Assembly (NCBI RefSeq): GCF_029360705.1
Contig: NZ_JARKMX010000008.1
Coordinates: 682,001 to 746,000, forward strand
Length of the DNA: 64,000 nucleotides
Reading direction: 5' to 3'
Origin: Paraflavitalea pollutisoli
Lineage (GTDB): Bacteria > Bacteroidota > Bacteroidia > Chitinophagales > Chitinophagaceae
Part shown: positions 3,992 to 42,294 of the stretch, in pieces
Layout: every line of letters starts with the position of its first letter
Position numbering within the stretch: position 1 is the first letter of the stretch
Made by a program: the position numbers and the translations under genes
Notes under the pieces: generated by a model
The model's database searches: none
Told to the model about the DNA's origin: nothing
Seen by the model: the letters and a program-made list of their open reading frames with translations, nothing else

Positions 3992-4504
3992 TTATTGTCG
4001 GGACTCGATATTGTTCAGGTGTTCCCGGATGATCTTCACGCCGCTGGCAAAGCGATCGTTGACGGTTTCCAGCGGAACTTTCAGTAGCTGGCTGACGCTG
4101 TGTTTGGAGCAGCCGTGGTAGTACATCAATTCGAGTACGAGGCGTTGGTCGGCTGGTATATGGCGGATGATGCTCCGCAGCCCTGAGTCTTGGTGGTTGA
4201 TGTCGGGCTCGGGTATCACTTCACTGGATCGCAGGTAATGAATGGCTTGCTGGCGTGCGAGGAGTTGCAGCCAGGTAAAGGGAGATTGTTTGGTTGGGTC
4301 GTAGTGATGGATGGTGTCGAAGGCTTCCTGGAATGTCTCTTCGAGCAACTGTGTGGCTGCCTGGCGGTTTTCCAGGATATCCAGCAACAGGCCATATATT
4401 GCCGCCGCATACCGGTCGTAGAGGGTTTTAAAGGCTTCTTTGTCTTGTTGGCGCAGGAGATCAACCAATGACGGGGCGACCGCATTAGGGCGTTTCTTTT
4501 TCAT
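3992..4504 (-). CDS. ECF-like RNA polymerase sigma-70 factor
   Basis: This 170-residue protein has a region 2 (about 23-95: KEAFKTLYDRYAAAIYGLL, then DPTKQSPFTWLQLLARQQAIHYLRS) and a region 4 (about 110-165: IPADQRLVLELMYYHGCSKHSVSQLLKVPLETVNDRFASGVKIIREHL), where the helix-turn-helix binds the -35-like element. The architecture is ECF, close to group SigK/SigW-like factors. No anti-sigma gene lies next to it; instead two small paralogous orphans follow downstream, and either could be a regulator. Its upstream region (4505-4800) carries a structured RNA on the same strand, so part of its transcription may come from that promoter. Confidence 0.85.
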   Translation of the reverse strand: MKKKRPNAVAPSLVDLLRQQDKEAFKTLYDRYAAAIYGLLLDILENRQAATQLLEETFQEAFDTIHHYDPTKQSPFTWLQLLARQQAIHYLRSSEVIPEPDINHQDSGLRSIIRHIPADQRLVLELMYYHGCSKHSVSQLLKVPLETVNDRFASGVKIIREHLNNIESRQ

Positions 4505-4609
4505 AGCTACCTGATTATTGTTGATAAAAAGGATGGGTTGCTGACGACGGCAGCCAGGTGTCCCTTAGGGATTCCCGTAAATGGTATAATGCGTAAAATG
4601 GGGAGTGCG

Positions 4610-4787
4610 GAGACTGCCCCAAAAAGAAGAGGCGCAGGTCTCGACTTTGCTGCCTGGGACCCGTCGGAGGGTTAGGGACAGACAAAGAAGAGCCCACGCC
4701 GTAACGTGAGCTTTCTTCTTTCATCTCATCCCTGTTGAAGTTCCGACGTTCCCAGGCGAGAATCCAGAAGCAGCTTAATGTTTTTAA
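4610..4787 (-). ncRNA. Rod-like structured RNA, candidate 6S RNA
   Basis: The minus strand can fold into one long, interrupted hairpin. The closing stem pairs 4767-4773 with 4614-4620 (CUGCUUC with GGGGCAG). After an internal bubble, a strong stem pairs 4742-4757 with 4652-4668 (GCCUGGGA and GUCGGA with UCCGAC and UCCCAGGC, one small internal loop). Next come a 5-bp stem (4729-4733 with 4674-4678) and an apical hairpin closed by CACG/CGUG at 4695-4708. A consensus promoter ends about 6 bases upstream of the 5' end. Total length is about 178 nt. A closing stem, a central bubble and a long terminal arm at this size are the 6S layout; a 6S family specific to this phylum (6S-Flavo) is known. The fold is read by eye, and the 3' end is uncertain. 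Confidence 0.55.
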
Positions 4788-4792
4788 GGCTG

Positions 4793-4824
4793 CAAATGTA
4801 AATCGAAGATAGAGAACTTTTCAA
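4793..4824 (-). promoter_or_regulatory. Bacteroidota-type promoter of the structured RNA
   Basis: On the minus strand, TTG (4824-4822) is followed after 21 bases by TACATTTG (4800-4793). This matches the Bacteroidota sigma-A consensus (TTG, 17-23 nt, TAnnTTTG) exactly. Transcription would start near 4786, just ahead of the first predicted stem at 4773. Confidence 0.7.
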
Positions 4825-4826
4825 CA

Positions 4827-4844
4827 GGTACCAAGTTTGGTACC
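4827..4844. promoter_or_regulatory. Perfect inverted repeat, candidate operator
   Basis: The two half-sites GGTACCAA and TTGGTACC are perfect 8-bp inverted repeats separated by GT. The site abuts the -33 element of the RNA promoter on one side and lies 35 bases ahead of the XRE start codon on the other. A likely binder is the XRE protein encoded at 4879-5115, which would then control its own operon and perhaps also the RNA. Confidence 0.6.
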
Positions 4845-4878
4845 ATTATTTTTTCCATAGTTTATCACCTTTCCGTTT

Positions 4879-5115
4879 ATGAAGAGCGAAAAGGATATTG
4901 AATTGTTGAAGCAGCTAGGCTTGCATGTTAAGAAGATCAGGCAGGAGAAGGAACTTTCACACCGCCAGGTTGCAGCCGCCTGCAATCTGGAGCATCATCG
5001 TATCATAGAGATTGAACAGGGAAAGGTGAATATTACCTACACTACCTTGGTTGAGTTGGCCCAGGGCTTGGGTGTGACAGCTGGGGAGATTGTGACGGTT
5101 AATCTTGCTAAATAG
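4879..5115 (+). CDS. XRE-family helix-turn-helix regulator
   Basis: This 78-residue protein is a single HTH_3 domain. Helices run from about residue 6 to 75, with the helix-turn-helix at SHRQVAAACNLEHHRIIEIEQG, the family signature EQGKVNITYTTLVELAQGLGV, and no extra sensor domain. It starts 35 bases after a perfect palindrome and ends 44 bases before the Roco gene on the same strand, so it probably leads that operon and represses it. Small XRE genes in this position are common at the head of toxin-antitoxin and phage-defence operons. Confidence 0.85.
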   Translation: MKSEKDIELLKQLGLHVKKIRQEKELSHRQVAAACNLEHHRIIEIEQGKVNITYTTLVELAQGLGVTAGEIVTVNLAK

Positions 5116-5159
5116 AAGTTGTGTGAGCTTTTAGAGATATTTATTAGTCAAAACCATTT

Positions 5160-7583
5160 ATGAGCATACAGATTGCCAATGCTAAGATTGCCAAAGCTAT
5201 TGCTGAACATTCAATCCATATAGATCTTAGCTGCCTCGGTTTGTTGGAAATTCCGGATAACCTCCGGCAAGCAAACTGGCTTCAGCGCTTAAATGTCAGT
5301 AGCAATAATATTAAGAGTCTCCCGACTTGGTTGCATGAGTTTACTGATCTTGAAGTGTTAGATGCGCGTAGCAATAGTATTTCAATTCTGCCATCGGAAA
5401 TTTATGGGATGAATTCTCTAAAACAGTTACATTTTCGATTCAATAAGTTAACAGAAGTAGATGAGGAATTGTCAAGCCTACCAAATCTTACCTATCTAAA
5501 CATTGCGGATAATAATATTTCCAGGTTGCATGCAGGCATGTTTCGTATTCCTCACCTAAACATAGATAATAATCCTGTCATTGATCCGCCTGTGGAGGTC
5601 TATTCAAGGGGATATGAGGCTACCAAGAATTACTTTATGGAACGGACTAACGGGACGGAAAAATTGTATGAATCAAAGTTACTCATTGTAGGAGAGCCCG
5701 GTGCTGGTAAAACTACACTGTTAAATCTTCTTTTAGATGAAAATTACGATTCATTTTTCACTGATTCTTCAACAAAAGGGATAAAGATAGAACCGTACTA
5801 TTTTGAAACGTCAGATGGGACAAAGTTCCGAGTTAATATTTGGGATTTTGGCGGCCAAGAAATCTACCACACAACACACCAGTTTTTTCTAACTAAAAGA
5901 TCACTATATGTTTTGTTGTCAGATAATCGTGCTGAAAATACTGACTTCAATTATTGGTTAAGCTCAATTGAATTGCTTAGCGATGAAAGCCCCTTGTTAC
6001 TTCTTCAAAATGAGAAATCCGAGAGAAAGCATAGGATCAATAATGTAGGAATGCAAGAGCGCTTTGGGATCCTAAGAAACACGTTTTCCTTTAATTTAAA
6101 ACTAGATAAAAAAAGCCTTTCGTCTTTCAAGAGAGCAATACAACATCAAATTGGTGAGTTGCCCCATATTGGGACAGAGCTACCTAAAATTTGGGTGGTA
6201 ATAAGGAAAGAATTAGAAGAGAAATCAAAGACAGTCCCTTATATTACTGATTGGGAGTATTTAGAAATATGTAGGAATTATGGCATGGAAGAAAAGGAAA
6301 GGGCATGGTTTCTTAGTGACTACTTTCACGACTTGGGTGTCTTGCTTCACTTTAAAGATAACGTAGTATTAAAAAGGTGGATCATTCTTAAGCCTGATTG
6401 GGGTACGGAAGCAGTTTATCGGGTGTTGGACAATCGAAAAGTAATTGATAGCAATGGTTATTTTAGTAAGGCAGATTTAGCGGAAATCTGGCGTGAAGAG
6501 AAATACAGGGACATGCACGATGAACTAATTTCTCTAATGATGAAGTTTGAGTTGTGCTACCGAATTGAGGATTCAAATAACTTCATTGCTGCTCAGCTCC
6601 TACAAGTAGCTAAACCAGTTTATAGATGGAGTGAGCTAGATAATATTACGTTTAAGTACACCTACGAGTTCATGCCCAAGGGTATATTAACACGATTTAT
6701 TGTCAGGATGAATGATTACATCGAAAATCAAAAAAATGCGTGGAGAGATGGGGTTGTATTGTATAGAGAAGGCACTTGGGCAGAGGTTATAGAGACTTAT
6801 GGGAAAAATGAGATTAGGATACGAATTCGGGGAGATAACAAGAAAGAGTTTCTGGCTATAATACTAGATTCTATCGATAAAATAAATCTTTCGTACTCCA
6901 ATTTGAAGGTGCAGAAGTTAATTCCGTGCACTTGCAATAAATGCAGGCAAAAAGGCGAGCCACATTATTTCGAATTCAACTATCTGCGGGAATGTTTAAG
7001 AAATGACGTAAATACGGAACGCTGCCATGTAAGCTTTGACTTGATAAAGATTCGCCCTTTAATCGACGATGTACTCGGAGCTGCCTTCAATAAGCGAGGG
7101 GGAGGAATAAAGGTATTTGTGTCTTCTCACTCGGATGATGCTGAAGAGAGTTTGCATTTCATAAAGCATCTCAAGGCATTAGAAAAGTCTGAGAAGTTAA
7201 CTATAAGTGATATGTACACCGTGCCGGCTGGAGTAAATGAAAAAATTGTTATTCGAGAAAGGCTAGACACGTCTGACGTTATTATCTCTCTAATAAGTGC
7301 AAATTATTTTAATTCTGAGACGAGTTGCAATGAAATGACAAAGGCGCTTGATAGAACTGAGACAAAGTCTTGCCTATATATACCTGTTATTATCAAAGAC
7401 TGTGATTGGCGGTCATTGCCAATTAGTGAGATTAGGCCAGTCCTGTATAATGGAAATGGTCTGGTCAGAGCTGGTACTGGTATCGACGAAGCAATGGTTG
7501 ATGCTGTAAGTCAAGTAAAAATGGCAATTAGAGAGTTTAGATTAGGTGACGACGTTTTGGGCATCGAAGCTAAGATTGATTAA
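5160..7583 (+). CDS. Roco protein with C-terminal TIR domain (LRR-Roc-COR-TIR)
   Basis: This 807-residue protein has four parts. Residues about 20-150 are leucine-rich repeats (LQRLNVSSNNIKSLPTWL and at least four further copies). Residues about 165-330 form a Roc GTPase with the P-loop GEPGAGKTTLLN (about 178-189) and switch II DFGGQEIYHTTH (about 231). The usual NKxD motif is degenerate (LLLLQNEKSE). A COR domain with a Cys-rich stretch (CTCNKCRQKGEPH, about 600) follows. A TIR domain (about 650-790; KVFVSSHSDDAEES) has a candidate catalytic Glu in SANYFNSETSCNEM. In known families LRRs sense, Roc-COR switches, and TIR domains cleave NAD+ or build nucleotide signals. Lower GC than its surroundings and a partner TIR gene 17 bases downstream suggest a transferred defence module; that role is inferred. 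Confidence 0.88.
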   Translation: MSIQIANAKIAKAIAEHSIHIDLSCLGLLEIPDNLRQANWLQRLNVSSNNIKSLPTWLHEFTDLEVLDARSNSISILPSEIYGMNSLKQLHFRFNKLTEVDEELSSLPNLTYLNIADNNISRLHAGMFRIPHLNIDNNPVIDPPVEVYSRGYEATKNYFMERTNGTEKLYESKLLIVGEPGAGKTTLLNLLLDENYDSFFTDSSTKGIKIEPYYFETSDGTKFRVNIWDFGGQEIYHTTHQFFLTKRSLYVLLSDNRAENTDFNYWLSSIELLSDESPLLLLQNEKSERKHRINNVGMQERFGILRNTFSFNLKLDKKSLSSFKRAIQHQIGELPHIGTELPKIWVVIRKELEEKSKTVPYITDWEYLEICRNYGMEEKERAWFLSDYFHDLGVLLHFKDNVVLKRWIILKPDWGTEAVYRVLDNRKVIDSNGYFSKADLAEIWREEKYRDMHDELISLMMKFELCYRIEDSNNFIAAQLLQVAKPVYRWSELDNITFKYTYEFMPKGILTRFIVRMNDYIENQKNAWRDGVVLYREGTWAEVIETYGKNEIRIRIRGDNKKEFLAIILDSIDKINLSYSNLKVQKLIPCTCNKCRQKGEPHYFEFNYLRECLRNDVNTERCHVSFDLIKIRPLIDDVLGAAFNKRGGGIKVFVSSHSDDAEESLHFIKHLKALEKSEKLTISDMYTVPAGVNEKIVIRERLDTSDVIISLISANYFNSETSCNEMTKALDRTETKSCLYIPVIIKDCDWRSLPISEIRPVLYNGNGLVRAGTGIDEAMVDAVSQVKMAIREFRLGDDVLGIEAKID

Positions 7584-7600
7584 TGTTTTAAAGTATAATT

Positions 7601-8050
7601 ATGTCCGATGTTTTTATTAGTTACGCCAATCAGGATAAGAAGCTATTAGACGAATTCAAAAGGCATCTAAAGCCCATTGCTAGAAGTATTTCATTTTGGG
7701 ATGATTCGAAAATATTGCCAGGCCAAAAGTGGAAGTCCGAAATTTTGCAGGCATTAAGCGGTTGTAGAGTTGGGGTTTTGTTTGCTAGCGCTGATTTTTT
7801 CAACTCTGATTTTATTCAGGATATAGAAGTGCCTTCACTATTGAAATCTGCCGAAGAAAAGGGGGCTGTGATTTTGACTGTAATTTTGAAACCTTGCCTG
7901 TTTTCCGAGTACGAGGATATCAGTCAGTATCAGGCTATTAATCCCCCCAATTATACCGTCATAGAGATGAGTGAACAAGAGCGGGAAAAGCTTTGGATCA
8001 AGTTGGTTCGTAGGATCAAGACCATTCTTGATGATGCGTCGAGAAAGTAG
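7601..8050 (+). CDS. Stand-alone TIR domain protein
   Basis: The 149 residues are almost entirely one TIR domain. It begins with the box 1 strand DVFISYANQDKKLL and continues through ISFWDDSKILPGQKWKSEI (the BB-loop region) to SADFFNSDFIQDIE, where Glu76 occupies the place of the catalytic glutamate of NADase TIRs. The last strand and helix complete the fold, so no sensor domain is present. It lies 17 bases after the Roco-TIR gene. It could assemble with the TIR tail of its neighbour, act as the enzyme that the Roco protein switches on, or make or receive a nucleotide signal. Confidence 0.88.
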   Translation: MSDVFISYANQDKKLLDEFKRHLKPIARSISFWDDSKILPGQKWKSEILQALSGCRVGVLFASADFFNSDFIQDIEVPSLLKSAEEKGAVILTVILKPCLFSEYEDISQYQAINPPNYTVIEMSEQEREKLWIKLVRRIKTILDDASRK

Positions 8051-8691: not shown

Positions 8692-9282
8692 TTATGGCGC
8701 TTCTAAATAAGTGCCCTCTTGAGCTTTTTTTACATATTGTTTGCTTCCTATTTTATAAGTTATCGAAAGTTCTTTGATTTTGCCCGGTGCTGGATCGGAG
8801 CCTAGCTCGTTTGTCACATATACTCTTAGTTTATCGTCTAAAACTTTGTTCCTTATTTTATTTGTCACATCAATGATATTGTCTTTAATGCCATATGTAG
8901 CGTATGTTATTTCTAATTTAGTTGAAATAAATTCTTCAATAAATTCCAGGATGCCCGACGACTGCTGTCTAACAATTTGATATAAGTCCTCTAATGAGTA
9001 GTCGTAGTTGAATTCAAATTCAACGTTTTCAAACATGTCTACTAGCTCTAATTTTGGTCTTATATTCCATTCATATTCGTCGTATTCTTTCCAGTGTTTA
9101 TATTTGTATCGATACAAATTGAATCTTTTGCCATTTATTTCAGTCGAATAAACTTTGTCGATTACAATTTCTCCGTTTGCTAATTCTGGGTCTGATACCG
9201 CTCGGCTGCTCCATTCAATATTCTTGCTATTAGTTTGTTTAATAAGAGCAAGTATAAACTGGTTTTGACTGTCTGTATTCAT
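8692..9282 (-). CDS. Protein with C-terminal DUF3395-like (DNAJC11_C-like) domain
   Basis: This encodes 196 residues. The first half (about 5-100) begins like the common short-protein module 'F..LI..T.....IEW' followed by a beta-rich stretch (GKRFNLYRYKYKHWKEYDEY). The second half (about 122-194: ITYATYGIKDNIIDVTNKIR, NELGSDPAPGKIKELSITYK, AQEGTYLEAP) fits the pattern of the DUF3395 domain (YG..ghyvDVT, NelfGDPaPG.kK.L.V.Y, EG..l.iP), known from the C-terminus of DnaJ-like DNAJC11 and from bacterial orphans. The match is from memory of the family pattern. Its ATG overlaps the stop of the upstream membrane protein by 4 bases (9279-9282), so the two are translated together. Confidence 0.65.
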   Translation of the reverse strand: MNTDSQNQFILALIKQTNSKNIEWSSRAVSDPELANGEIVIDKVYSTEINGKRFNLYRYKYKHWKEYDEYEWNIRPKLELVDMFENVEFEFNYDYSLEDLYQIVRQQSSGILEFIEEFISTKLEITYATYGIKDNIIDVTNKIRNKVLDDKLRVYVTNELGSDPAPGKIKELSITYKIGSKQYVKKAQEGTYLEAP

Positions 9283-10427: not shown

Positions 10428-11817
10428 GTGTTCCATAAACTGTGTCAGTAGTTTTAATTTCTGTACTCATCGGCATTTGATGTTCTTTTCTGATGGAGCT
10501 GATGGGTGATGCAAGAGATGCAAAAGACATCATATGACGATGAGGCTTCATTACTCAGAGGTTTAGTTTTAGCCTGTCTCCAAAGATAATCGATAATTGC
10601 GCCAAAGTCTGGTTCCAGTTGTGTACCGGTTTATTCCACTTGACGCTGATATTCTCCTGAACCAGAAACAGTAGTTTCATGAGAGCGTCCTCGCTTTGGA
10701 ATGCTCCTTTGGTCTTGGTGACCGTTCGGAGCTGTCGGTGGAAGCCTTCGATGATATTGGTGGTGTACATGATGCGGCGTATATCCTTGTTGTACTGGAA
10801 GTAACGGCTTAAGCGATCCCAGTTCTTCCGCCAGGACTCTATAACCTTGGGATAACGTTGCCCCCAGTTAGCCGCAACCTGGTCAAGATTACGTTCAGCC
10901 TGCTCTTTGGTGTTGGCCTTATAAACGCCCTGCAGGTCCTTCATGAACGGCTTTACATCTTTGTAGGGTAGATACTTATGGGAGTTCCTGATCTGGTGGA
11001 CCACGCAGAGCTGAACTTCTGTTTGGGGGAAGATACTTTCGATGGCATCGGCAAACCCTTGTAGATTGTCGATGGAAGCAATGAAAATATCCTCGATGCC
11101 CCGGTTCTGCAGATCTGTAAGAACCTGGAGCCAGAATTTGGAACCTTCATGTTCTCCGATGTACATACCCAGCAACTCTTTGTAACCCTCCTGATTAAGC
11201 CCTATTATGCAGTAAACGGCGCGGTTGACCACCCGTCCCTCATGGCGGACTTTGTAATGGATGGCATCCAGCCAGACGAAGGGATAAACCCGTTCTAAAG
11301 GCCGGCTACGCCACTCCTGAATTAGCGGTAGGATTTTGTCTGTTACCCGGCTAATGGTCGCCGGCGATATATCCAGCCCATACATGTCACTGAGGTGGTC
11401 GCGAATATCGCTGTAGCTGGCGCCACGCGCATACAAAGCGATTATTTGTCGGTCTAAATCAACACCTAAGGTCTTCTGTCGCTTGGGAACGATCTCCGGC
11501 TCAAAGGTGCTGTTACGGTCTCTGGGAGTAGCCAGCTCGACGTCACCAACCGGTGTTTTGATCTTCTTCTTTCCCTTGCCGTTCTTGCGGTTAGGGTCTT
11601 CATCCTGGTCGATGTGAGCTTCCAACTCGCCCTCAAGGGCTTCTTCCAGAAACTCCTTCAATAATGGGGTAAAGACACCGTCTTTACCAAGCAAAGTTTC
11701 TCCGCTTTTTAAGCGGGTAGCGGCCTGCTTTTTGAAGGCTTCGAAATCAAAATTTTGCTTGTCCATAATGTCAGTTTAAAGTTACTTAACTTTCCACTGA
11801 CACACTTTTTAAAACAC
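10428..11817 (-). mobile_element. IS256-family insertion sequence, intact
   Basis: The element is about 1390 bp. Its terminal inverted repeats are 22 bp: left 10428-10449 (GTGTTCCATAAACTGTGTCAGT) compared in the opposite orientation with right 11796-11817; they agree except at a few positions, and both contain TGTGTCAGT. One full-length transposase gene lies between them on the minus strand. No target duplication is evident directly outside the repeats, so the ends may have been altered or the insertion may be old. Confidence 0.8.
10555..11766 (-). CDS. IS256-family (Mutator-like) transposase
   Basis: This intact 403-residue transposase cuts and joins the ends of its own element. The N-terminal DNA-binding part (about 1-130) contains the family helix-turn-helix (LYARGASYSDIRDHLSDMYG). 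The DDE-type catalytic core (about 165-370) shows the first Asp in WLDAIHYKVR, the second in SIDNLQGF, and the Glu in NIIEGFHRQLR. The Cys-His motif CVVHQIRNS between the last two is also typical of the family. The usual DGxxGF around the second Asp is DNLQGF here, a mild variation. It has no frameshift and should be active. Confidence 0.95.
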   Translation of the reverse strand: MDKQNFDFEAFKKQAATRLKSGETLLGKDGVFTPLLKEFLEEALEGELEAHIDQDEDPNRKNGKGKKKIKTPVGDVELATPRDRNSTFEPEIVPKRQKTLGVDLDRQIIALYARGASYSDIRDHLSDMYGLDISPATISRVTDKILPLIQEWRSRPLERVYPFVWLDAIHYKVRHEGRVVNRAVYCIIGLNQEGYKELLGMYIGEHEGSKFWLQVLTDLQNRGIEDIFIASIDNLQGFADAIESIFPQTEVQLCVVHQIRNSHKYLPYKDVKPFMKDLQGVYKANTKEQAERNLDQVAANWGQRYPKVIESWRKNWDRLSRYFQYNKDIRRIMYTTNIIEGFHRQLRTVTKTKGAFQSEDALMKLLFLVQENISVKWNKPVHNWNQTLAQLSIIFGDRLKLNL

Positions 11818-13290: not shown

Positions 13291-14085
13291 TTATTCCGCC
13301 TCCAATACCGCCTTCGGCAGCATCAGCGAAAAAGGTAGCGCCTTTGTATAATCCAAAGAGGGATATTCCAAGCCCAACGCCCTGATATTGGCGTAATAAG
13401 TGTCGTGTTGTATGTAGTAGTATTTTTCTGACTGAACAAACCAGGCTTTGGGACCCAGTTTCACTGCAAGAAACCATTTTTCCAGCAACCGGGCACTTCG
13501 CCCGTTCCCGTCATTCCACGGGTGGATCTTGACAAAAACGAGGTGTATCATGCTCGCAAAATAGAACGCCTCGGTAATGGTCATTGTTGTTGCCAATAGC
13601 GTCTCAAGATCAGAATAGAATTTATCCATCTCGCGAACCAACTCAAAAGGCGAAGCCGAAACATATTCAATACGCCCATCTTTGGTTGTTACGTACATAT
13701 TTTGGTTCCTGAATTTTCCCAACCAATGAGCAGGGACGATGTGTTGAGCCAATTGAGCATGCATCGCGCCGATAGACGCTTTATCCGGCCTCTTGGTTGT
13801 CGCCAATTGATAGGCCAGGTATAGGTCATCTATCTTGCGGGTAAAGTCTGGCTGAAATTCTATATGAAAACGCTTGTGTTTGATGTACGAATCAAGTTCA
13901 ATAGGTTCGCCTTCTATTTTGCCAGAGTAAACGGAAGCTACGGCATGGTGAAAGCTAAATCCTTCCGTCGACAATTGGGCATCTTGCAAGAGCGCAAATG
14001 CTTCCGCCAAGGTGTCCACTGCCACCACGGAACCGTACGCGTTCAATAAACCATGGGGAATAATTTGCAGATCAAAAGGGCGCAT
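13291..14085 (-). CDS. Fic family protein (AMP transferase-like)
   Basis: This is 264 residues from the ATG at 14085 (MRPFDLQIIPHG); a TTG at 14154 would add 23. The Fic core holds HPWNDGNGRSAR (about residues 188-199), a full match to HPFxxGNGRxxR with Trp for Phe, so the catalytic His, the acidic residue and the phosphate-binding Arg are present. Nearer the N-terminus, YSGKIEG fits the inhibitory motif (S/T)xxxE(G/N), whose Glu blocks ATP in class II Fic proteins. Such proteins transfer AMP to Ser/Thr/Tyr hydroxyls of target proteins. It appears intact and self-inhibited. The target is unknown; a small orphan gene follows. Confidence 0.9.
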   Translation of the reverse strand: MRPFDLQIIPHGLLNAYGSVVAVDTLAEAFALLQDAQLSTEGFSFHHAVASVYSGKIEGEPIELDSYIKHKRFHIEFQPDFTRKIDDLYLAYQLATTKRPDKASIGAMHAQLAQHIVPAHWLGKFRNQNMYVTTKDGRIEYVSASPFELVREMDKFYSDLETLLATTMTITEAFYFASMIHLVFVKIHPWNDGNGRSARLLEKWFLAVKLGPKAWFVQSEKYYYIQHDTYYANIRALGLEYPSLDYTKALPFSLMLPKAVLEAE

Positions 14086-14226
14086 GGGTAATGACGTATA
14101 ATCTTGCGCCGTAACTATAGAGAAATCAATAATAAATCGACTACGACCCCACAAAAAAAGGAATGGACCAACTGTCCACTCCTCTTCGATGTTTATTCCC
14201 CGTAGAATTTTCTTGTAATGACTGCC

Positions 14227-39865: not shown

Positions 39866-40489
39866 CTAGACCTTTTGCTTCCTTATTCCTTCGCCCACCA
39901 TAAACTCGGGAAATCCATTGTTTTGAAAGAACTCCGCTACTATTTTCAGGCTTGCATGGATCAATGTTTCATGCATGAAATCGCTAAGGGGAAGCGCGAT
40001 GGCGGCAAACTGCTTATCGCCTTTTGTAAGAGCGAAGGTTCGTTGCGACCGCTCCCAAAGCTTCTCAAACTCTGGAAAATCCTGTTTCCAGCCATTTCGG
40101 GCGAGGTAAAATAGTAGCCGCGTTTCGGAATCCTCTACGGGCGCGTAAGCTTCTATGTTTTGTTTGTTGGATAACTGGGCATCGTAGAAACCGGTATCAC
40201 TTTGAATAGCAATACCAACATTAATGACCAGGCCATTCAGCCGCTTATGCGCTCCACAATAGAATTCATGAAAATACATGGGTAACCAATCCCAGGCCCA
40301 GTAATCCCGGTAATGTTTTCTGCCATCGAAAAAGCTGCCGCTGAAGCAGCAATAGGTATTTTCGATCTGGACGCCGATAGATTGTGATATATAGTCTACC
40401 GTATCGACCAATCGGCGTTGATACATATACAGGAGCCGATAGGCCTTGCGAACATCGATCAGTGCTGCTTGCAGATCAGTTGTTTCCAT
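39866..40489 (-). CDS. Hypothetical protein in an operon with a PD-(D/E)XK nuclease
   Basis: I do not recognise this 207-residue protein. It is soluble, with an N-terminal helix (DVRKAYRLLYMYQRRLVDTVDYISQ), an aromatic-rich central region (YRDYWAWDWLPMYFHEFYCG) and a helical C-terminus. It starts only 3 bases after the stop of the nuclease-like gene at 40493-41275, so the pair is co-translated. It may be a nuclease inhibitor, a specificity subunit or a sensor. Its aromatic middle (WAWDW) looks distinctive. Confidence 0.7.
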   Translation of the reverse strand: METTDLQAALIDVRKAYRLLYMYQRRLVDTVDYISQSIGVQIENTYCCFSGSFFDGRKHYRDYWAWDWLPMYFHEFYCGAHKRLNGLVINVGIAIQSDTGFYDAQLSNKQNIEAYAPVEDSETRLLFYLARNGWKQDFPEFEKLWERSQRTFALTKGDKQFAAIALPLSDFMHETLIHASLKIVAEFFQNNGFPEFMVGEGIRKQKV

Positions 40490-40492
40490 ATA

Positions 40493-41275
40493 TTATGGCG
40501 AAGTTTTAAGAGTAGTTAATGATACTGTGTTGATGTTAAAGTCCTTTGACAGGCCATCCAACATGCCTGGTCTTCCCTTTGTCAGTGCCATGAAAGAATC
40601 AGCCGAAATGGTATAGGGTGTATGGAAGTTGTTGAATAGTTCACGCGGATAATAACCGTGGAAGTTTAAGTATTCGATCATATCCGTTAAGATGTTGCCC
40701 ACCATCGGGAGTTCGACAGGCTGGTGTAGTGTATCACGGACTTCCTTCACAGCTTTCAACGTCTGTAGCAATGCTCGCCACCGGATCTTGAAAACAGTCA
40801 CGGATCGGCCTTCTATGTCGATCGTCTCATTCTTATTGTTGAGTGGATCGTTGCCGCCGATCGCCAATAGAATGACGTGGCAGACGTCGGATCCATAAGC
40901 CAATTGATAGGCTTTCACTTCTCTTTCCCACTGGGCGGGGCTTTGAGCGTTGTTGTCATCACGGGCTTTAGCTTCTACAATGATGTCGAGGTTGTTGCAT
41001 CGAATGAAGAGGTCTGGCTCCACCCGATTGTCCAATGTCCAGCCTGGCCAAAACTCATATTGCAGGATCTCGGGACGTGGCAATGGTGTCGACCTGTCCA
41101 GCAACGACCGGTCCAGTATTTCCCAGATCATCGATTCGGGTAAATAGAATAGTCGCTCGAAGAAGTTGGAGGTAATGAAATCTTCCGAACTATTGAGGAC
41201 CTCCCGCCAGCCGATTGCCCTATTGTCAAATTCGAAATTCCTGCCTGCTTTTCCTTTTCTTAACAGATTGAGCAT
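40493..41275 (-). CDS. PD-(D/E)XK nuclease-like protein
   Basis: This 260-residue protein holds a nuclease core at about residues 85-160. EPDLFIRC provides the metal-binding Asp, and DIIVEAKARDD the (D/E)xK motif, with a helix just after it (QWEREVKAYQLAYG) carrying the conserved Gln/Tyr positions. Such cores occur in restriction enzymes and in many defence systems. The remainder has no known domain. The gene is followed after 3 bases by an orphan gene. The nuclease reading rests on the motif spacing; the substrate is unknown. Confidence 0.75.
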   Translation of the reverse strand: MLNLLRKGKAGRNFEFDNRAIGWREVLNSSEDFITSNFFERLFYLPESMIWEILDRSLLDRSTPLPRPEILQYEFWPGWTLDNRVEPDLFIRCNNLDIIVEAKARDDNNAQSPAQWEREVKAYQLAYGSDVCHVILLAIGGNDPLNNKNETIDIEGRSVTVFKIRWRALLQTLKAVKEVRDTLHQPVELPMVGNILTDMIEYLNFHGYYPRELFNNFHTPYTISADSFMALTKGRPGMLDGLSKDFNINTVSLTTLKTSP

Positions 41276-42209: not shown

Positions 42210-42294
42210 GGAGAGATGGCAGAGCGGTCGAATGCGGCGGTCTTGAAAACCGTTGACTGTCACAGGTCCGGGGGTTCGAATCCCTCTCTCTCCG
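42210..42294 (+). tRNA. tRNA-Ser (anticodon UGA)
   Basis: The acceptor stem GGAGAGA (42210-42216) pairs with TCTCTCC (42287-42293), and G42294 is the discriminator. The anticodon TGA is at 42244-42246 in CTTGAAA. The long variable arm marks a class II tRNA, and the T loop is TTCGAAT. CCA is not encoded. Confidence 0.92.

Follow-up and report, generated by a model that had tools for sequence, protein, structure and literature searches.

What is the use of a Roco GTPase that ends in a TIR domain and is followed at once by a gene for a second, separate TIR protein? Such an arrangement was found in a stretch of 64,000 nucleotides of contig NZ_JARKMX010000008.1 (hereafter the window) from the genome of Paraflavitalea pollutisoli (8.76 Mb in 16 contigs). 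The first gene encodes a protein composed of leucine-rich repeats (LRR), a Roc GTPase domain, a COR domain and a TIR domain (Roco-TIR), the second one a stand-alone TIR protein (lone TIR), and 17 bases lie between them; this order had been described in a first-pass annotation of the DNA and is confirmed by the open reading frames (ORFs) and Pfam. The Roc and COR tandem places the protein in the Roco family, with Roc, COR-A and COR-B above the Pfam cut-off, and both TIR domains exceed the cut-off as well; further matches of the Roco-TIR protein are LRR_8 (3.3e-10), TIR_2 (4e-7) and LRR_4. The P-loop (GEPGAGKT at residue 178) and switch II (WDFGGQE at residue 228) are both intact. Throughout the whole 8.76-Mb genome the TIR_2 profile (E <= 0.001) matches just the fused and the lone TIR. 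Judged from their sequence relatives, the two genes are a real conserved pair and not a three-part operon, and the pair is likely to serve in defence. Most likely it would act as a two-gene abortive anti-phage switch with docking by the fused TIR and catalysis by the lone TIR, a reading which we accept about as readily as we doubt it.

The relatives come from a survey of one genome per species (84,980 species), which gave 261 stretches with Roco patterns and 206 coding relatives, the best 80 of which were used; as the survey was keyed on two short peptide patterns, further relatives may be missed. Among these best 80, identity above 50% over nearly the whole Roco protein is shown by two loci alone, L033 (metagenome-assembled genome (MAG) Bacteroidetes SZAS-24) and L037 (MAG Chitinophagaceae RYN_292). 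Identity amounts to 54–57% in both proteins, and the lone TIR gene lies directly downstream of the Roco-TIR gene at 2/2 of these loci (5 bases on in L033, overlapping in L037). Adjacency in homologues was the check proposed in the first-pass annotation, and because both closest relatives keep it, the conserved unit is Roco-TIR plus lone TIR. The XRE gene that stands before the pair in the window is absent upstream of it at L033 and L037 and precedes other genes in genome G162 of the same genus; it is therefore placed outside the unit and was rejected as a part of the system. A phmmer search with the XRE protein among the ORFs of the surveyed Roco and TIR loci detected the window copy alone at E 1e-4. 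A single operon of XRE, Roco-TIR and lone TIR is putative, as judged from strand and spacing. Among the three orthologues, identity is 65–73% in the Roc part (residues 166–340), 64–74% in COR-A, 53–63% in COR-B and 54–57% in the lone TIR; the least conserved parts of Roco-TIR are the LRR part (residues 1–165, 41–48%) and the fused TIR (39–46%). In 294 genomes of the family no match above 40% identity lies outside the window's own genome, among the matches listed. The G+C content of the pair is below that of its flanks at all three loci; over 5160–8050 it is 38.3% compared with 50.3% in the window as a whole (values this low occur in 14 of 245 sliding windows), in agreement with the earlier description of the DNA as AT-rich.

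The same annotation regarded the two TIRs as paired effectors. This is not supported: the fused TIR is degenerate at the W-x-D signature, and so the two look unlike equal effectors. They were compared by aligning 80 TIRs, of which 50 are Roco-fused and 30 separate, with positions numbered on the lone TIR. The signature is lost in the fused TIR and kept in the lone TIR at 3/3 pairs. In the alignment as a whole an aromatic residue at position 33 is kept in 40/50 fused and 28/30 separate TIRs, Asp35 in 42/50 and 28/30, and Glu76 in 42/50 and 27/30, respectively. Residues 33 and 35 are both lost in 5/80 TIRs, namely in the fused TIR of each of the three pairs and in L132 and L144, which are separate TIR-like proteins. 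A TIR neighbour within 1.5 kb accompanies 5/5 of these and 11/75 of the others (Fisher 1.8e-4, a value that takes the TIRs as independent and ignores descent, the five signature-less TIRs representing about three origins); the 11 comprise the five partners themselves and two TIRs each at L017, L076 and L099. The catalytic-type Glu which the first-pass annotation had ascribed to the lone TIR is indeed intact, being E76 in the alignment with F5 opposite to it, and the lone TIRs of L033 and L037 are identical to the window's at all 14 signature columns. Phe and Glu are also aligned in the window's fused TIR.

Confident AlphaFold2 models of the two domains have different best solved structures, the matches being fold-level only. 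The best folds for the lone TIR (pLDDT 92.1) are the TIRs of SARM1 (top), MyD88 and MAL, and the fused TIR (residues 633–807, pLDDT 86.0) is best matched by plant RPS4/RRS1 (4c6t; E 3e-6, TM-score 0.56), with SPARTA TIR-APAZ and TRAM further down the list. RPS4/RRS1 have paired TIRs, one of which acts as executor, and they carry NB-ARC where Roco-TIR has Roc-COR; the likeness is an analogy only. In a single FastTree run, where one deeper node has a support of 0.35, the clade of the lone TIR groups with the separate TIRs L117–L119 (support 0.94) and belongs to a wider clade (support 0.805) together with Roco-fused TIRs of other genomes. Because the two TIRs fall into different clades and share 29% identity over 98 columns, a recent tandem duplication of one TIR into two is not favoured.

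The best solved relatives of Roco-TIR are 4wnr, 6hlu, 8r4b and 3dpu, the last three being structures of CtRoco, and LRRK2 matches too. As in these bacterial Rocos and relatives of LRRK2, the protein combines LRR, P-loop, DFGGQ and COR-A/COR-B. CtRoco is opened into a monomer by GTP binding, according to the accessible part of PMC11052575. A second precedent is Thoeris of S. aureus, in which ThsB1 binds a phage capsid protein and recruits ThsB2, and mutation of the Phe/Glu pair disrupts immunity in ThsB2 and not in ThsB1, though ThsB1 has the pair (PMC12578639, accessible text). On these two precedents the following order of events is proposed. The LRR domain would sense a phage product or cell damage, and GTP loading of Roc-COR would open the Roco-TIR protein. 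The fused TIR, a putative sensor/adaptor, would be mainly a homotypic docking site gathering the lone TIR, which is predicted from its intact signature to cleave NAD+ or to make an ADP-ribose signal. The header in front of the genes (XRE, palindrome and RNA) probably holds the module low until it is needed.

The likeness to two-TIR Thoeris type I consists in one TIR protein which senses and a second one which catalyses, encoded together (PMC12578639, as far as accessible; for the present pair these roles are conditional). Unlike in Thoeris, a Roco GTPase with LRRs would take the part of sensor, and no ThsA gene was recognised beside the pair (no SIR2, SLOG or macro match in the neighbouring window proteins; flanks of L033 and L037 inspected by eye), which is why the pair is not filed under Thoeris. 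A STALD search of the genome gave 0 matches and detected 0/14 controls too, hence it is uninformative. The C-terminal TIR and the partner TIR gene set the pair apart from known bacterial Rocos: in all prokaryotic Rocos identified by 2019, Roc-COR is preceded only by LRRs, as stated in the accessible text of a review (PMC6337361). The joining of Roco to TIR is already published for TPR-ROCO-TIR of the red alga Chondrus crispus, which differs in being eukaryotic and in having TPR instead of LRR; no partner TIR is mentioned in the accessible part of that paper (PMC11378527). The protein is not NLR-like in the STAND/NACHT sense, as its NTPase is Roc (nSTAND3 reaches 16.2 bits against a cut-off of 27.2). 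Nor is the pair a SPARTA system, which would require a short pAgo partner: no Argonaute match was present among the 10 window proteins scanned with Pfam. No report of a Roco anti-phage or defence system was found among the open-licence papers listed. Positions of all features are collected below.

Table 1. Features of the locus in the window (residue numbers refer to the Roco-TIR protein).
Feature	Position	Strand	Remarks
Sigma-70-type factor gene, divergent	3992–4504	-	Sigma70_r2 4.1e-10
Structured RNA, model R1	4629–4769	-	strand opposite to XRE; 121.5 bits, E 1.2e-28 (this copy is among the 26 used to build R1); no Rfam family
Palindrome GGTACCAAGTTTGGTACC, putative XRE operator	4827–4844	unstranded	sole exact copy in genome
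XRE/Cro-CI type regulator, 78 aa	4879–5115	+	HTH_31 E 5.8e-9; HTH_3 also matches
LRR-Roc-COR-TIR protein (Roco-TIR), 807 aa	5160–7583	+	COR-A 1.2e-44, COR-B 3.1e-35, Roc 6.9e-22
LRR region, residues 28–138	5241–5573	+	Pfam
Roc GTPase, residues 173–285	5676–6014	+	Pfam
COR-A and COR-B, residues 342–637	6183–7070	+	Pfam
Fused TIR, residues 650–795	7107–7544	+	Pfam TIR_2; Phe and Glu kept, FWDD signature without its W and its second D
Lone TIR, 149 aa	7601–8050	+	TIR_2 E 9.7e-13; intact F5, W33, D35, G41, W44, E76
Mutator-type (Transposase_mut) transposase, insertion sequence (IS) element	10555–11766		Pfam

The C-terminal tails of the Rocos vary in content. They were counted in 92 of 116 proteins, with 24 left out (truncated, open-ended, COR-B not reached or tail below 60 aa); tail set A4 holds 91 of these 92 and the window's, the second Roco of L112 being left out. 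L057 (unknown letters) was removed before folding. At a Pfam threshold of 0.001 the overlapping counts are TIR_2 33, TIR 19, EAD11 8, NPHP3 6, DUF4062 5 (weak, best E 1.9e-4), ThsB_TIR 3, CHAT 2, CAP12-type TIR 2, AAA_21 1 and DUF4365 1; there are two more single weak matches, probably due to chance, and PADLOC at 1e-6 adds bSEFIR in 6 tails. Effector-associated domains (EADs) are described as adaptors that probably bring effectors in through homotypic contact (PMC8195603, accessible text). The weak DUF4062 matches are a link to Swarozyc, a phage defence with a TIR-like NADase as effector, which belongs to another TIR-like family; Roco is unmentioned in its main text (PMC13174449, accessible part). 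A constant Roc-COR core whose ends, effectors or adaptors, can be exchanged fits the pattern expected of an immune receptor.

The main Roco carries a fused TIR at 29 of 95 Roco loci (window included), and a further TIR ORF is present at 6/29: the window, L033, L037, L017, L076 and L099, the last with two Roco-TIR genes in tandem. Other arrangements are a TIR gene downstream of a Roco that lacks TIR (L097), a TIR gene beside a Roco (L126 and L144) and a Roco split from its TIR into two ORFs (L141). At L045 (821–6110) and L076 (3–4227) a second TIR-like gene comes after Roco-TIR, and these loci may represent another recurrent gene set; L045 also has a KGG-type ATPase (by eye) and a small membrane protein. 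At L226 (3658–11470) a single Roco-TIR gene is surrounded by a cluster of several TIR or TIR-like genes. At L225 (4877–6426, - strand) a TIR gene and a degenerate TIR-like protein with WG repeats oppose the strand of phage-tail-like genes (by eye) and are possibly a prophage-borne defence. Roco genes were also seen on three IMG/VR contigs classed as viral (L113, L114 and L115), two of them with TIR. Spread on phages was considered and rejected: scans of viral contigs gave three distant Rocos (A2 scan) and 0 (A3 scan), and tblastn of the Roco protein against phages gave one record covering residues 20–146 only. The same search against plasmids gave 25 records, none reaching 80% query coverage.

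XRE gene, palindrome and divergent RNA together make up a control header of their own, as is shown by synteny with locus L194 of G162, where they stand before other genes. The earlier statement that XRE and palindrome lead the genes is right as to position and not supported in so far as it counts XRE with the unit. The G162 XRE has 92% protein identity and an identical palindrome. The 236 bases from 4609 to the palindrome end agree at 231/236 positions (palindrome 18/18); agreement is 24/34 over the 34 bases that follow and 165/200 over the initial 200 bases of XRE, whose first 67 codons show 33 synonymous and one non-synonymous differences. Homology ends at 5094, near the XRE 3' end. A relative of the divergent sigma gene (39% identity) lies beside the G162 XRE in the same divergent order. 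Behind XRE, G162 encodes a 263-aa protein (nuclease-like by eye, no Pfam), a 451-aa protein (no Pfam) and a DUF5677 protein, none of the three with a PADLOC match. Farther along lies a phage-type integrase, with a tRNA gene at a distance of about 260 bases. From XRE to tRNA it is about 7.5 kb in G162 and about 37 kb in the window, so that the two loci differ by some 30 kb.

The palindrome consists of the arms GGTACCAA and TTGGTACC around gt. The first-pass annotation called it perfect, which is true of the 8-base arms and not of the asymmetric 2-base centre. The window contains 14 perfect repeats with 8-base arms and a spacer of 0–4, one of them between 4700 and 5200, and when the 109 bases that separate RNA and XRE were shuffled by mononucleotides, an equally long palindrome arose in 11/500 cases. 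A sigma-70 promoter scan did no better than shuffles, and the Bacteroidota-type promoter pattern has 2 matches in the window, neither at this locus.

The structured RNA (4629–4769) folds into a long hairpin on the strand opposite to XRE, with z -5.9 for 4609–4756. Relatives were found by blastn in 25/294 family genomes, 23 of them credible (L250 and L252 were judged chance matches and left out of the alignment). In the 26 aligned copies 91.7% of cells pair and both sides change in 20/33 pairs; the 129 double-change cells compare with a mean of 40.7 in shuffles (0/500 reach it) and at most 42 when slid. Because of its U-G pairs, the - strand is suggested to be the transcribed one. The covariance model R1, built from these copies, matches 120/294 family genomes and 62/101 genera with up to 8 matches per genome (at most 11 candidates per genome were scored). 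Three copies lie in the window's own genome; the second (L287; C15, 3.30 Mb) has no detected helix-turn-helix (HTH) gene and no evident cargo. At gathering score Rfam yields tRNA only (window, L194 and 20 of the 28 loci L229–L256), the best sub-threshold match for 4500–4900 having E 0.068, and no report of such an RNA with XRE and defence was found among the open-licence papers listed; the RNA is apparently undescribed.

Association of the RNA with an HTH gene is well supported. Sixty copies were sampled, mostly from the upper ranking and spread over genomes, the window's genus included; counts refer to all 60 loci, and neighbourhoods were read by eye at L287–L301 and L332–L346. A divergent HTH gene starts within 700 bases of 39/60 copies vs 0/240 placements on 40 control regions; on the opposite side of the 60 copies no HTH gene was detected over a distance of about 700 bases. 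By region, an HTH gene is present at 40/60 RNA loci and 1/40 controls. These 60 loci also served to train the HTH profile, a bias in their favour. A palindrome at shuffle p <= 0.05 occurs in 11/39 RNA-to-HTH spacers (binomial 2.2e-6); the palindromes differ in sequence, and two pairs of loci share theirs.

That the header marks defence cargo is a lead. PADLOC, applied to the largest ORF within 4 kb, matches at 6/20 RNA loci (L337, L318, L330, L300, L338 and L315; random sample of 58 loci, the short L309 and L328 left out) vs 2/20 controls (L375 and L363; random sample of 40 regions), which is not significant (Fisher 0.235). Ten more proteins chosen by eye gave a match in 9/10, a biased sample in which two represent one Gabija pair. 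The matches near RNA copies include Gabija GajA/GajB, type I and IIG restriction-modification, a type II methyltransferase, class II pAgo, DndD/PbeC, HerA, an Avs4-like protein and a TIR effector. Two genomes of one genus, G091 (L236/L300) and G219 (L253/L319), combine the RNA and similar HTH starts (by eye) with different cargo, type I restriction-modification in one and an AAA/OLD-like ATPase in the other.

The first-pass annotation suggested a mobile defence island. Among the 11 window proteins scanned with PADLOC, and apart from the three considered here, strong matches came from a Fic protein (5 kb downstream) and from a PDC-M15 pair (32 kb downstream); no defence genes were recognised by eye near the L033 and L037 pairs. 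The nearby IS element mentioned there is present as a Transposase_mut transposase, and the gene at 8692–9282 has a weak PDC-M64C match (E 2.3e-4). The Fic protein (13291–14154, - strand) matches SoFic of PADLOC, and the PDC-M15A/B two-gene candidate system (39866–41275, - strand) lies next to a tRNA at 42210–42294. In G162 a Fic relative, in two ORFs, is located on the opposite side of the header, so that the locus was rearranged between the two genomes.

Several observations weigh against the docking and catalysis roles proposed above and against defence. At L017, L076 and L099 the signature is retained in Roco-fused TIRs that likewise have a TIR neighbour. The loss in three orthologous pairs is one event, just three such pairs having been found. 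The fused TIR may still be active, as the Phe/Glu pair is kept (Tyr/Glu in L037). In Thoeris of S. equinis ThsB1 is the enzyme (PMC12578639, accessible text), and thus the role of enzyme can switch between TIR partners. Finally, no defence gene was recognised, by eye, within about 3.5 kb of the pair in L033 and L037. In line with the paired effectors of the first-pass annotation, both TIRs might be enzymes, Roco-TIR cleaving NAD+ itself and the lone TIR amplifying its action or co-assembling with it. The fused TIRs of the pairs argue for this by their Glu (3/3) and Phe (2/3, window and L033), together with the 23/29 Roco-TIR loci that show no other TIR ORF in the stretch examined, so that a fused TIR often does without a partner (several stretches reach contig ends, and L045 has a TIR-like gene by eye that the profile missed). 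W33 and D35, kept in most Roco-fused TIRs, are lost in all three of the pairs, and the fused TIR diverges fastest along with the LRR; on balance we think it somewhat unlikely that both are enzymes. The match of both TIRs to the PADLOC ThsB model PDLC00420 would suit a Thoeris-like sensor without linked ThsA, in which the lone TIR would produce cyclic ADP-ribose as the signal to an effector whose gene lies at another site. Against it, no third shared gene was seen by eye at the three loci, and we regard it as improbable. The want of recognised defence neighbours at L033 and L037 would also suit a stress or developmental switch for cell death or signalling with no phage link, and related NTP-dependent conflict systems are reported to come preponderantly from multicellular prokaryotes (PMC7159879, accessible text). 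Such a switch seems quite unlikely, given that this form is rare (among 294 genomes of the family, in the window's alone), that G+C is lowered at all three loci and effector tails are swappable, and that relatives of the header lie near Gabija, restriction-modification and other defence genes.

As for the header, the palindrome is followed by ATTATTTTTT and scored as terminator-like, and the T-rich run is also present in G162; it might accordingly be read as a transcription terminator or attenuator instead of an operator. This is unlikely in our opinion, because from 2974 up to the palindrome there is no likely + strand gene, hence no obvious transcript to be terminated, and palindromes recur in the RNA-to-HTH spacers. 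With the palindrome taken as a putative operator, a wider and more tentative view is possible, which we think rather doubtful at present: structured RNA, divergent HTH/XRE gene and private palindrome would be a plug-in control for interchangeable defence cargo across Chitinophagaceae, and Roco-TIR/TIR would be one such cargo, a bacterial paired-TIR receptor whose GTPase-gated pseudo-enzyme TIR nucleates a catalytic TIR.

If the anti-phage switch is real, it would connect bacterial TIR immunity with the GTPase switch of the Roco/LRRK2 type and would provide a compact system for how a Roco activates its effector, a question still open for LRRK2. The pair offers a clean test of pseudo-enzyme versus enzyme roles of TIR domains. 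The RNA-HTH header, if it controls defence cargo, would make the RNA a lead to unknown defence genes.

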